A stretch of 29,552 bases of DNA from a virus. The stretch lies in IMG/VR virus record IMGVR_UViG_3300034284_000440, positions 1-29,552 of that record, one strand, 5' to 3'. This document shows, piece by piece, positions 15,854-24,681 of this stretch (positions are counted from its first letter, which is position 1; each line of letters opens with the position of its first letter). The translations under genes and the position numbers were made by a program. The notes beneath the pieces are model-generated. The model saw nothing but the letters and a program-made list of their open reading frames with translations, had not been told where the DNA came from and did not search any database.

Positions 15854-16366
15854 ATGCAAGATTTAAAAAACTTTGAAGGACTTTACAAAATTGATAAAAG
15901 TGGTAACATATATTCAAATAGGATTAAAAAAATAATGAAAAATAGTAAATCTAATTCAGGTTATTTTTGTATAATTTTAAAAAAGAATAAAAAAACTTAT
16001 GGTACTTTTATTCATAGATTATTAGCTATAAATTTTATAGATAATCCTTTAAATTTAGAACAAGTAAATCATAAAGATGGTAATAAACTTAATAATAATT
16101 TAGATAATTTAGAGTGGGTTACACGTTCTGAAAATATTTTACATATGTATCAACTTGGATTAAAAAAATATAAACCATTGCATTATAAAAACAAATTTGG
16201 CAGTGAACATAATAGAAGTAAATCTATTTTATGTACAACTAACAATAAAAATTACGGTTCTATTTCAGAAGCCAGTAGAGAATTAAGCATAGCAGTTTCA
16301 TCTATACATTGGGCAATAAATAAAAATACTCAAACTAAAAAAGGATATACATTCATATATAATTAA
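15854..16366 (+). CDS. HNH homing endonuclease (free-standing)
   Basis: This 170-residue protein has the layout of HNH homing endonucleases. A NUMOD4-like segment at residues 4-30 (LKNFEGLYKIDKSGNIYSN) is followed by the HNH core at about 54-90, with His54, Asn72-His73 (VNHKDGNKLNNNLDNLEWVT) and downstream Asn residues. A C-terminal DNA-binding repeat of intron-encoded nuclease type lies at 124-170 (SISEASRELSIAVSSIHWAI). The enzyme would cut a homologous site in a related phage to spread its own gene. It sits alone between endolysin and terminator and is visibly more AT- and Lys/Asn-rich than its neighbours. No intron boundaries are evident, so it is probably free-standing. Confidence 0.85.
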   Translation: MQDLKNFEGLYKIDKSGNIYSNRIKKIMKNSKSNSGYFCIILKKNKKTYGTFIHRLLAINFIDNPLNLEQVNHKDGNKLNNNLDNLEWVTRSENILHMYQLGLKKYKPLHYKNKFGSEHNRSKSILCTTNNKNYGSISEASRELSIAVSSIHWAINKNTQTKKGYTFIYN

Positions 16367-21115: not shown

Positions 21116-21202
21116 AGCCATGTGTCGGAATTGATAGACGAGTGCTTCCCATTAGAACAGCATACCCTTTGAGGTTTATAGGTTTGAATCCTATCATGGC
21201 TA
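21116..21202 (+). tRNA. tRNA-Leu-like gene with an enlarged anticodon loop
   Basis: A class II cloverleaf can be drawn by hand. Acceptor stem: AGCCATG (21116-21122) with CATGGCT (21195-21201), seven perfect pairs. D arm: TCG/CGA with loop GAATTGATAGA. T arm: ATAGG (21178-21182) with CCTAT (21190-21194) and loop TTTGAAT. A variable arm has the short stem ACC/GGT. The D-loop and total length of 87 nt point to Leu. The anticodon stem TGCT/AGCA (21143-21146/21159-21162) encloses an oversized loop. The best reading is CCC followed by ATTAGAA, which would give anticodon UAG. The 3' end is A then CTA, without encoded CCA. It may be functional, altered or decaying. Confidence 0.6.
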
Positions 21203-21583: not shown

Positions 21584-21606
21584 CCACCTATTAAGGTGGT
21601 TTTTTT
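21584..21606 (+). terminator. Terminator ending the recombination block
   Basis: CCACCT (21584-21589) pairs with AGGTGG (21594-21599) around ATTA, and seven T follow. It lies 35 bases after the SSB-like gene and closes the early transcription unit that began at 16.5 kb. Confidence 0.85.
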
Positions 21607-21841
21607 ATTTATATTGATAATCAATTCTTTATATATATTTATATTCCACATGAATAAAAAAGTATGCAAAGTCTCTCTTATAGGCATAGTTCAAACAAGA
21701 ATTTTTTTTTTTTTCAAATTATCAAAAAAAAACCTGCATCCTGCATGTTTTTGGCTTATAGTCAATGTTTATAATACTTTCGCTCATATATAAATTTTTT
21801 TACATGTAGAATATAAATATATGTTTATTGAATATAATATG

Positions 21842-21871
21842 TTTAAGTCAATTAATAATATTGTATATTTG
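21842..21871 (+). promoter_or_regulatory. Possible promoter for the structured RNA / primase unit
   Basis: TATATTTG (21864-21871) matches TAnnTTTG. The upstream element is a weak TTTA (21842-21845) at 18 bases distance. Transcription would start near 21878, ahead of the long hairpin at 21931 and after the terminator at 21.6 kb. Confidence 0.45.
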
Positions 21872-21930
21872 TGTTTTAGTTCTTAATAAATATGTGGTGT
21901 GAGAACCATTAGTTATAATCTTTTTAAATG

Positions 21931-22011
21931 CCATTGTAGGTATTGCAAAAAAAGGAATAGTAGAAATACTATTCTAAATTCTCACTTGCAGTTCCTACAA
22001 TGGTTTTTTTT
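21931..22011 (+). ncRNA. Two-part hairpin RNA element ending in U8
   Basis: The RNA would fold as a long rod. Outer stem: CCATTGTAGG (21931-21940) with CCTACAATGG (21994-22003), 10 perfect pairs. After one T-T mismatch, a seven-pair stem follows (21942-21948 with 21986-21992, one G-U). An unequal internal loop comes next (5 A on one side, 10 bases on the other). The tip is a perfect eight-pair hairpin GAATAGTA/TACTATTC closed by a GAAA tetraloop. Eight T follow the outer stem directly. It could be a small RNA with its own terminator, a leader of the downstream operon or a complex terminator. The gene start at 22016 comes straight after the T run. Confidence 0.6.
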
Positions 22012-22015
22012 ATTT

Positions 22016-22288
22016 ATGAATAAATTATGTCAAAGTTGTAAATCTGAAAATATAGAAACTATTTTTAGTGATGGTGTTATGAGCTACTTTTGTAAAGATT
22101 GCAATGCCTACAATGGTTCAGCTCACAATTATATTAGTACAGGATTAAAGTTTAGGTTCGGAAAATATAAAGGAGATTTAATTGAATTATCTGAAAATGC
22201 AAATTACCTTAGTTGGTTGCTTGAAGGTAATAAAATTGATAAAGGATATCGAATAGCAGTTATTAACAGATTAAACCAATTAAAATAA
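22016..22288 (+). CDS. Zinc-ribbon / DUF3820-like protein
   Basis: The 90-residue protein has an N-terminal zinc ribbon, CQSC (residues 5-8) and CKDC (27-30), and a C-terminal segment FRFGKYKGDLIELSEN, then YLSWLLEG, matching the DUF3820 / exonuclease-X-like tail motif FGKYKG...YL.WL. Zinc ribbons next to primases often assist template binding. I start at ATG 22016, which has no usual A-rich leader because it follows the U8 run. A longer frame from a GTG at 21899 would have to read through the hairpin. The stop overlaps the primase-helicase ATG by one base (TAATG). Confidence 0.6.
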   Translation: MNKLCQSCKSENIETIFSDGVMSYFCKDCNAYNGSAHNYISTGLKFRFGKYKGDLIELSENANYLSWLLEGNKIDKGYRIAVINRLNQLK

Positions 22289-24681
22289 TGCCACAAATAA
22301 CAATATACAAATCATTTGGAGACGTATCCGCTGGATATAATAGAGATATTTATTTTATCTTAGATAGGATAAAAAGAGGTAGTTCAAAGGTACTTATTGA
22401 ACAAATACGTAATTCTAATTTAGAGGCTCAAAATAGCCTTAAAAAGAAACTCCCAGCCATTCTATTCAGTGGAACATTTAGACAGCGAAATGATGCCTCT
22501 ATTATCGAACATAGTGGTTTAATTTGCATTGACTTTGATAAGTTTGAAACAATTGAGTTATTAAACGAATTTAGAGCGCAATTAATCGAAGATGCTTACA
22601 CATTTAGTGTGTTTACCTCACCTAGTGGTAACGGGCTTAAATGCCTGGTTAAAATACCAAATGAAATAGAAAATCATAAATTATACTTTGAGTCATTAAA
22701 AGAAAAATATAATTCTAAATATTTTGATATCTCATGCTCAAATATTAGTAGAATATGTTTTGAAAGTTATGATCCAAACATTCACATAAACGAAGATAGT
22801 TTAATATGGTCTGAGAAAAGCGAACCCGATATTTATGAGGTTGAAACTATTAATGTAAACATACCGATAAGGTCAGAAAATAGAATAGTAGATAATCTTC
22901 GTAAATGGTTTACTAAATTCTCAATGAATGAAGGAGAGAGGAATAACAACCTATTCAAGTTAGCCATCGCATTCAATGATTTTGGAGTACCAAAAAACGT
23001 ATGTGAAAGCGTTTGTATGGAATATGTAAGGGAGGATTTTCCACTTCGTGAAATACAAACTATTATAAAAAGCGCTTATCAACGTACAGGTAGTTTTGGA
23101 ACTAAATTCTTTGAAGATACATTTACTAAAGAAAAGATTGAAAAAAACATTCGTAGTGGTAAGGATATAAAAGCAATTAAAAAACAATTCCCTGACTTAC
23201 AGGAAAATGAGATTGAGAATGCCATCGAGAACGTAAAGGAAAATATATCAATAACTGACTTTTGGGAATATTCTAGTAAAGGCAATATTCAAATTTTACA
23301 GCATAAATTTAAGTACTTCTTACAGGAACGTAATTTCTTTAAATTTTATCCGAGTAGTACGAATGGATTTATATTTATTAAAATATTTGAAAACTTACTT
23401 GAAGAAACAAATAAGGATATGATTAAAGATTATACCCTTAATTATTTAGAGTTTAAAGAAGATATAGGAATGAAGCCATTTAATTATATGGCTGAAAAAA
23501 CTAAATATTTTTCATTCGATTTCTTATCATTTTTAGAAACTAAAGAAGTTAAATTACTTGAAGATGACATCGATAATTGTTATCTATACTTTAAAAACAA
23601 AATAGTATCAATCTCAAAGAATGAGATTAAACAAATTGATTACATTGATAGCGAAGGTTACGTGTGGAAAAATCAAATCATTGATAGAGATTTTGAGTAT
23701 ATTAAAATAGAATCATGTGTATTTGGTAAGTTTTTAAATTACATTGCTGGAGAAGATGAAAGTCGTTATAATTCGCTTAAATCGGTTATTGGGTATCTAT
23801 TGCACTCATTTAAAACAAGTGCAAACAATAAGGCTATAATTCTTAACGATGAAACTATTTCAGATACTCCGAATGGTGGGAGTGGTAAGGGCTTATTTTG
23901 GAATGCTTTAAGTCAAATGAAAAAATTAAATAGTTTAGATGGAAAATCGTTTAGTTTTGGCGACCAGTTTAAGTATCAAACCATTTCTGCAGATTGTCAA
24001 ATATTAGTATTTGACGATGTAAAGAAAAACTTTGACTTTGAAAGTTTATTTAGTCTTATTACTGAAGGTATTACCTTAGAGCGCAAAGGTCAACTAGCAA
24101 TAAAATTACCCGTTAAGAAAAGCCCGAAAATATTAATTACAACTAACTACACGGTCGGTGGCGTTGGTGGATCATTTGAGCGTAGAAAGTTTGAGGTTGA
24201 GTTTAGTAGTTTCTTTAATGCAAACAACACACCTTTAAAAGTATTTAATCATTTATTATTTGACGAATGGAGCGAAATAGAATGGAAAAAATTTGATAAC
24301 TTCATGATTGAATGTGTGCAATATTATTTAGCAAATGGATTGGTACAGCATGAGTTTAAGAATTTAGAGGTGCGCAAATTTATTAATAAAACATCGAGTG
24401 AATTTTATGAGTTTGTTAATGAAACCGAACATTTGCAAACGGGAGTTAGAATAATAAACCAAGTATTTTTTGAGGAATTCTTAAACGATTATCCTGACTT
24501 TAGAAAATGGTTAACTAGAAAGAAATTAAAACAATGGATTGATGTTTATTGTCAATTTAAAGGATATGAAGTAGAACATGGCAAATCTCATTTAGGAGTT
24601 TATTTTGAGATAGTAGATAAAACAAAACCGAAAAGAAACGATATAACAAGCGAACCAATTGATGACGGATTAATATTTTAA
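22288..24681 (+). CDS. Primase-helicase (VirE-N/BT4734-like primase plus SF3-type ATPase)
   Basis: This 797-residue protein probably primes and unwinds DNA at the phage fork. The N-terminal third resembles the VirE-N/BT4734-like, PrimPol-related domain: IEHSGLICIDFDKFE (about residues 73-87, acidic metal ligands), FTSPSGNGLKCLVKIP (109-124) and a Cys/Arg segment DISCSNISRICFESYDP. A D5/SF3-like ATPase domain follows: Walker A PNGGSGKGLF (about 528-537), Walker B ILVFDDV (about 571-577) and sensor ILITTN (about 615-620). The Walker A lysine is followed by Gly in place of Ser/Thr. The C-terminal 150 residues may be a winged-helix region. It is coupled to the zinc-ribbon gene. Confidence 0.75.
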   Translation: MPQITIYKSFGDVSAGYNRDIYFILDRIKRGSSKVLIEQIRNSNLEAQNSLKKKLPAILFSGTFRQRNDASIIEHSGLICIDFDKFETIELLNEFRAQLIEDAYTFSVFTSPSGNGLKCLVKIPNEIENHKLYFESLKEKYNSKYFDISCSNISRICFESYDPNIHINEDSLIWSEKSEPDIYEVETINVNIPIRSENRIVDNLRKWFTKFSMNEGERNNNLFKLAIAFNDFGVPKNVCESVCMEYVREDFPLREIQTIIKSAYQRTGSFGTKFFEDTFTKEKIEKNIRSGKDIKAIKKQFPDLQENEIENAIENVKENISITDFWEYSSKGNIQILQHKFKYFLQERNFFKFYPSSTNGFIFIKIFENLLEETNKDMIKDYTLNYLEFKEDIGMKPFNYMAEKTKYFSFDFLSFLETKEVKLLEDDIDNCYLYFKNKIVSISKNEIKQIDYIDSEGYVWKNQIIDRDFEYIKIESCVFGKFLNYIAGEDESRYNSLKSVIGYLLHSFKTSANNKAIILNDETISDTPNGGSGKGLFWNALSQMKKLNSLDGKSFSFGDQFKYQTISADCQILVFDDVKKNFDFESLFSLITEGITLERKGQLAIKLPVKKSPKILITTNYTVGGVGGSFERRKFEVEFSSFFNANNTPLKVFNHLLFDEWSEIEWKKFDNFMIECVQYYLANGLVQHEFKNLEVRKFINKTSSEFYEFVNETEHLQTGVRIINQVFFEEFLNDYPDFRKWLTRKKLKQWIDVYCQFKGYEVEHGKSHLGVYFEIVDKTKPKRNDITSEPIDDGLIF

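Follow-up and report, generated by a model that had tools for sequence, protein, structure and literature searches.

The window, which here means the whole 29,552-nucleotide stretch of viral DNA that was analyzed (IMG/VR record IMGVR_UViG_3300034284_000440), carries ahead of its zinc-ribbon/primase replication operon a structured RNA made of two hairpins, of which the second, terminator-like one contains the exact complement of the loop of the first. We call this arrangement, a class defined in the present analysis, the kissing-leader architecture, and we found its plan in many Bacteroidota-type phages with unrelated sequences. We are nearly certain that the window RNA is structured and under selection, kiss included. 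Judging from the sequence, we propose, with a probability of about 60%, that the element is the 5' leader of the operon and acts as a promoter-proximal attenuator. The class as a whole is probably an on/off gate for replication genes and mobile DNA-cutting enzymes. The features of the window are as follows.

21584 to 21606, + strand: simple intrinsic terminator of the upstream gene, CCACCT-ATTA-AGGTGG followed by T7, read from the sequence; it shields the leader from transcription coming from upstream.
21864 to 21871, + strand: promoter -7 element TATATTTG (TAnnTTTG/TAHHTTTG); in relatives, too, this element lies ahead of the hairpin.
21895 to 21908, + strand: 5' hairpin UGG-U-GUGAGAA-CCA, which displays kissing loop K.
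21899 to 21905, + strand: kissing loop K, GUGAGAA, 7 nt, the exact complement of 21979 to 21985; 3 of the 7 pairs show double changes in relatives.
21909 to 21929, + strand: A/U-rich linker joining the two hairpins, seen in the sequence; all variants have a similar kind of linker.
21931 to 21940, + strand: 5' arm of the terminator-like stem, CCATTGTAGG, forming a 10-bp helix with 21994 to 22003.
21942/21943 to 21948, + strand: inner helix, 5' side, 6 to 7 bp with 21986 to 21991/21992; two double changes.
21954 to 21962 and 21967 to 21975 (core 21955 to 21974), + strand: apical hairpin of 8 to 9 bp with a GAAA tetraloop, weakly conserved.
21979 to 21985, + strand: K', UUCUCAC, which can pair with K and immediately precedes the 3' strand of the inner helix.
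21986 to 21991/21992, + strand: inner helix, 3' side, from the fold and the alignment of relatives.
21994 to 22003, + strand: 3' arm of the terminator-like stem, CCTACAATGG, pairing with 21931 to 21940.
22004 to 22011, + strand: U8 tract, seen in the sequence, which completes the intrinsic-terminator-like element.
22016 to 22288, + strand: first gene, a 90-aa zinc-ribbon/ExoX-like C-terminal protein, with its ATG 4 nt past U8.
22288 to 24681, + strand: primase-helicase (BT4734-like N terminus, PriCT-1), the replication gene behind the leader.

The rod (21931 to 22003, 73 nt) is clearly present, and sequence and folding recovered every part that a sequence-only reading had listed for it, namely, three stacked helices, an asymmetric A-rich internal loop, a GAAA tetraloop, and U8. 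The segment from 21928 to 22012 folds with -31.9 kcal/mol, compared with -11.9 ± 2.7 for shuffled sequences (z = -7.3, 0/200 shuffles), which excludes a chance origin of the rod and, together with the paired changes in relatives, bears out the earlier view that it is more than an ordinary terminator. K' lies on the 3' side of the internal loop of the rod, which thus presents a partner for the 5' hairpin and makes a loop-loop (kissing) contact possible. Nested folding is unable to display the kiss itself; in the minimum-energy folds of two other leaders (L202 and L021), neither partner is engaged in a helix, so that both are free to pair. The rod is only half of the functional unit, the 5' hairpin being the other half. 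The 73-nt GAAA-capped rod did not hold up as the unit that is conserved; what marks the element is its kiss with the 5' hairpin, which lies within the earlier coordinates (21842 to 22016) and had gone undescribed. The window has the promoter, the hairpin with a complementary loop, the terminator-like hairpin, the U-run, and the start codon of the architecture, as well as the GC-rich stem, immediate U-run, and position between promoter and first gene of an intrinsic terminator or attenuator.

The TAnnTTTG element noted earlier 60 bases upstream is indeed a Bacteroidota promoter: TATATTTG lies 60 nt upstream of the rod and is the only TAHHTTTG between 21560 and the ATG. According to the Flavobacterium rule, TANNTTTG covers -12 to -5, and in F. 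johnsoniae the G of the motif is at -5 (PMC6847099). With this spacing, transcription would start near 21876. Since upstream terminators are present, the promoter of the leader is the only evident source of transcripts. A tblastn search with the zinc-ribbon protein gave no match, and blastn of the region against known phages gave chance matches only.

We found the primase at 90 to 100% identity in eight IMG/VR contigs, of which seven had a readable upstream region and five the window type of leader. In three of them (L008, L014, and L015), K reads GUGGAAG and K' reads CUUCCAC, so that 3 of the 7 kissing pairs are doubly changed and none is broken; the kissing helix is 100% paired among the window-type relatives. 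The earlier expectation that the stems are kept by paired changes held for the inner helix, with its two double changes, and failed for the GAAA-capped third helix, the least conserved one, in which 2 of 8 pairs are broken in 3 of the 5 relatives. The covariation score of this alignment, whose five sequences are few and of common descent, was reached by 0/500 shuffles, and slid controls scored far lower. In L014 and L015, which have no zinc-ribbon gene, the leader directly adjoins the primase. Two other contigs (L005 and L007) share the promoter-side flank and the genes, and have in the leader slot a wholly different RNA with the same plan, namely, a hairpin AAGAU-GUCGCAU-AUCUU and its partner AUGCGAC within a AGUCCUUUA/UAAAGGACU terminator hairpin. 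Between the window type and this type, leaders have been exchanged over a stretch that begins at about the transcription start and ends with the terminator, and the flanks are conserved.

The plan extends to distant relatives of the primase (∼41% identity), four of which (L020, L021, L022, and L025) display the loops GGUUCGAC, AAGUGGA, GUAGUGC, and AAGUUGGA, respectively. L018, L020, L021, and L025 have the promoter in common and diverge completely from about the transcription start; the kiss of L018 (AUGCGG/CCGUAU) was left uncounted, being weak and containing one G-U pair. The idea that the leader stands upstream of all relatives of the primase was dropped, as most of the marine ones (∼44% identity) are without it. 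A scanner that looks for a terminator-like hairpin preceded by a hairpin of complementary loop was applied to the regions upstream of 96 primase loci and found 12 elements, against 0 in 480 dinucleotide shuffles and 1 in 96 reverse strands; for L041, one of these 12 loci, the scored site is doubtful and a better element lies nearer the primase. TAnnTTTG, which was not a criterion of the scan, lies just upstream of 30 of 48 scanner matches (P of ∼2e-9 against the higher of two backgrounds).

About 30 further variants, and one subclass present in 70 metagenome contigs, share a common plan: a TAnnTTTG promoter, a 5' hairpin usually at +1, an A/U linker, a terminator-like hairpin holding the complement of the loop, U4-9, and an ATG. 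Behind it lie genes for primases and helicases and, most often, for homing endonucleases of the HNH and GIY-YIG types. Isolated phages are among the carriers. Phages elemoE and elemoA share the host Flavobacterium sp. BAL314; as far as TATCTTTGC their flanks are almost the same, and unrelated RNAs of the same plan follow, with the kissing pairs GUGGAGG/CCUCCAC and GAGAGC/GCUCUC. The mumin, hattifnatt, and morran phages (hosts LMO6/LMO9) form a series of otherwise similar RNAs with the pairs GUGGAACG/CGUUCCAC, GUGAGACG/CGUCUCAC, and GUGAGAAG/CUUCUCAC; in their alignment, 100% of the cells are paired and six pairs are doubly changed. Scanning Cellulophaga phi46:1, Polaribacter Leef_1, part of Maribacter Panino, Nonlabens P12024S, and Flavobacterium lotta8-1 gave no credible element. 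As a separate observation, positions 509 to 650 of L150, an unrelated 99.6-kb phage, hold a near-copy of the elemoE promoter and leader, with a different gene behind and an interrupted U-run.

Altogether, kissing complementarity with compensatory changes was found in at least four independent sets, which, like the 0/480 shuffles, argues strongly against an ordinary intrinsic terminator with chance complementarity. The terminator-like look and the position between two genes would suit that explanation. The element ends no upstream gene, however, because a separate terminator does so, and we regard this explanation as scarcely credible.

The homing-endonuclease subclass came from a second leader of the mumin-type phages, GUAG-AGUCGUCG-CUAC with the partner CGACGAC, which precedes a NUMOD4-HNH gene and recurs nearly unchanged in a marine contig (L080). 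Its 17-nt hairpin, searched in IMG/VR, retrieved the 70 contigs, nearly all with TAnnTTTG, the hairpin, an A/U linker, a very variable stem around a conserved UGAUAAAG-ACGACGAC-CUUUUGA interior, U4-9, and an open reading frame (ORF). Among 44 distinct RNAs, 99.3% of the cells pair and 14 of 22 pairs are doubly changed; the covariation score is 0.259, compared with 0.065 for shuffled alignments (0/500 reached it) and 0.013 to 0.038 for slid ones. The kiss itself is largely invariant here by construction, because the search was anchored on the loop. Independent evidence comes from L202 and L227, in which it is flipped to GUGGUCG/CGACCAC. Further elements were found by a covariance model without the kiss, and in all six of those with a 16-nt hairpin, the loop was exactly complementary (chance of 0.7 to 4% each), a test that is not wholly unbiased because the model has sequence preferences on both sides. 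Two near-identical RNAs among these elements differ in having GUGGACG/CGUCCAC versus GUGGAAG/CUUCCAC. Model R1, the covariance model built from the 44 GUAG-AGUCGUCG-CUAC elements, found L022 (E of 7e-4) and, at an E value of ≤5, missed the window element, which shares the architecture of the subclass without detectable sequence homology. Carriage in prophages found no support: in 395 Bacteroidota-class host genomes, R1 and an exact pattern gave 0 matches, the model search being strictly filtered and run without a positive control.

Evaluation of the genes behind the leaders at 72 loci revealed HNH_3 in 26, NUMOD4 in 23, GIY-YIG in 2, and T5orf172 in 2, the rest being primases, a DEAD helicase, and small unknowns. 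Phage filifjonk lacks both the endonuclease and its leader, with the flanking gene coming directly, which indicates that leader and gene move together. A promoter, kissing leader, and NUMOD4-HNH cassette is likewise present in one and absent from the other of two near-identical Flavobacterium phages (L155, 11580 to 12245; L158, 1380 to 1520). In six contigs (L181, L185, L193, L205, L216, and L223), diverging TATAACGTT...-type sequences resembling integron attC ends lie just past the leader, as if it fronted a cassette site; integrons have been reported in phages (PMC9892861). A GGUCAG-loop subfamily (L174, L202, L217, L177, and L207) has CUGAC(C) also in or beside the 5' arm of the terminator, and K pairing there could possibly block the terminator, as a built-in switch.

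Sixteen of the 70 contigs have two or three leaders, and the same K never occurs twice in one contig. This would fit another reading, unlikely but deserving consideration, according to which termination yields the functional product itself, namely, a small RNA that acts in trans and recognizes its own kind via K/K', like the P4 CI RNA or Gifsy IsrK. Such an RNA could turn expression of read-through copies on or off, or it could shut out a co-infecting phage whose loops are the same, in a manner resembling immunity or incompatibility. The leader swapping between close relatives with kept flanks (also between elemoA and elemoE), the extreme variability with self-complementarity retained, and the fact that CI RNA and IsrK act on transcripts of the same promoter (PMC4825925) all agree with it. 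On the other hand, since K and K' are in one molecule, pairing in cis is expected to prevail; the leader directly adjoins the gene and travels with it; and differing K sequences per genome are also explicable by descent, the contigs being fragments. An extension that we hold to be rather unlikely is a self-recognition code, in which each phage or homing gene would have a private kissing pair, the released leader would act in trans on no transcripts but those that share this pair, and loop diversification would create compatibility groups of co-infecting phages or mobile endonuclease copies.

The positioning of the element favors the attenuator. The 5' hairpin begins 3 to 6 nt past TTTG, at about +1, in 60/72 distinct loci, the window family (∼18 nt past +1) being an exception, and the ATG lies 3 to 6 nt past the U-run in 44/72 and at most 17 nt past it in 62/72. 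The element thus makes up the complete 5' untranslated region of the gene that follows. The sequence-only reading had left open an attenuator of replication genes or a stand-alone small RNA; the former is the best reading and the latter is less likely, because the U-run runs into the start codon in most of the 72 loci and the element travels with the gene. The fixed spacing to promoter and start codon also argues against a DNA-level replication element (a single-strand origin or protein-binding repeats), which we find very improbable. The window element does adjoin an AT-rich intergenic region with inverted repeats beside the primase, but G-U pairs are kept on the transcribed strand, which is sensible for RNA only, and most members front homing endonucleases, not origins.

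A U4-U9 tract follows the stem at once in all 69 elements measured. Start contexts behind the leaders are 58% T, and 92% of them have T≥4, compared with 31% and 10% for the A-rich starts of the other window genes; initiation in Flavobacterium favors A, the opposite of the U-rich contexts (PMC6847099), which argues that the U-run serves termination and not translation. These two results weigh against a structured 5' untranslated region acting after transcription, by protecting the mRNA 5' end against decay or controlling ribosome access to the adjacent start codon, with the U-run as an unstructured landing site, since a stem with an immediate U4-9 (69/69) is the signature of an intrinsic terminator. 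The hairpin at +1, the structure abutting the AUG, and the many homing endonucleases among the targets, for which there is precedent (reviewed in PMC3014915), would suit such a role, which we judge quite unlikely.

We favor the attenuator because attenuation has as its signature a stem and U4-9 that lie past the promoter and ahead of the start codon. From the sequence we infer that the element terminates transcription and that the kiss changes termination, in one direction or the other and under some form of regulation, along the following lines. The transcript would begin near 21876, and the small hairpin displaying the 7-nt loop K would be made first, followed by the terminator-like hairpin with K' in its interior, then U8 and the start codon. 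In the default state, some of the polymerases would halt at U8, yielding a leader RNA of ∼136 nt, and expression of the replication genes would depend entirely on read-through. K' lies 13 to 23 nt from the U-run (mode of 15, dominated by one subclass of common descent). RNA polymerase holds roughly 14 to 15 nt of RNA, and the kiss can thus first form with the polymerase on the U-run. K' would clear the polymerase about when the U-run is reached, the kiss would form at the stop/go decision, and it would likely be the control point, either aiding the closing of the terminator or keeping it open. Several observations count against an attenuator: the U-runs are weak or displaced in L164, L185, and L150; ∼60 nt or more precede any ORF in L181, L185, L193, L205, L216, and L223; marine relatives of the primase are mostly leaderless; the window hairpin is off +1; and the HNH gene of the window at 15854 has a plain leader. 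This homing-type ORF (15854 to 16366) has a TAHHTTTG promoter and a leader without a kiss; a kissing leader is not a constant feature of such genes.

The claim of novelty with respect to Rfam stood, as the covariance search of the window found no family for the rod. At the Rfam 15 gathering cutoff, the window, seven architecture-bearing relatives, and eight homing-type loci yielded tRNAs only, and permissive searches yielded chance-level matches only. We dropped 6S-like, tRNA-like, CRISPR-like, and type III antitoxin RNAs, as the rod is apparently without their hallmarks.

The closest systems in logic are P4 CI RNA (and P1/P7 C4) and IsrK. P4 has a leader-derived same-strand RNA with segments complementary within the leader and premature termination ahead of replication genes, and the promoter of Gifsy-1 IsrK serves both a short RNA that ends at a terminator and an mRNA made by read-through (PMC4825925). 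P4 uses the longer seqA, seqB, and seqC and a processed CI RNA in the prophage, whereas here two short loops kiss in one leader, many copies front homing endonucleases, and the phages examined showed no lysogeny genes; IsrK activates translation in trans, whereas here K and K' are in one molecule. The closest in targets are Aeh1 mobE, T4 segB, and I-TevI, where a structured RNA at the start of a phage homing endonuclease keeps the gene low or late (PMC3014915). Theirs sequester the Shine-Dalgarno sequence, whereas the present leader combines a kissing partner with a U-run and a hairpin of terminator type, and primases and helicases are also found behind it. To our knowledge, Bacteroidota are without a Shine-Dalgarno signal. 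The closest in loop-loop termination are pT181-type attenuators, in which a loop-loop contact is reported to determine the formation of a terminator ahead of a replication gene (PMC4878617, PMC3753616); the partner loop described there belongs to a separate antisense RNA, whereas the present leader contains its own partner, and no antisense RNA was found. None of these systems has the same anatomy.

The kissing leader is thus apparently an undescribed, very variable class in viruses of Bacteroidota, within a literature covered incompletely. It would be a new, widespread class of structured RNA specific to Bacteroidota phages, in which gene control is poorly known, and would explain how replication operons and mobile endonuclease genes are restrained after phage entry without repressor proteins. 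Homology tools miss it because the sequence is hypervariable and the architecture fixed; the loop-complementarity rule makes it searchable. As isolated phages with known hosts carry the leader, the matter lends itself to direct experiment. RNA circuit design, too, would benefit from kissing attenuators that are orthogonal by nature.

Three further observations concern the surroundings of the leader. Positions 21931 to 21948 are complementary at 17/18 nt to the zinc-ribbon coding sequence at 22099 to 22116, better than to their own 3' arm and more strongly than cross-pair controls; this is kept at 15 to 18 nt in L008 and L009 and has no counterpart in other leaders. Antisense to the zinc-ribbon gene was rejected as a general function, since the match is confined to the window family and L014 and L015 are without the gene. 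The AT-rich intergenic region at 21633 to 21822, a candidate replication origin, contains a 33-nt inverted repeat (85% complementary) and CTGCAT repeats and is kept in relatives. Finally, a tRNA-like element with a long variable arm lies at 21116 to 21202 (32.2 bits for Rfam tRNA; ARAGORN makes no call), and in the elemo phages a tRNA is likewise found a short way upstream of the leader.
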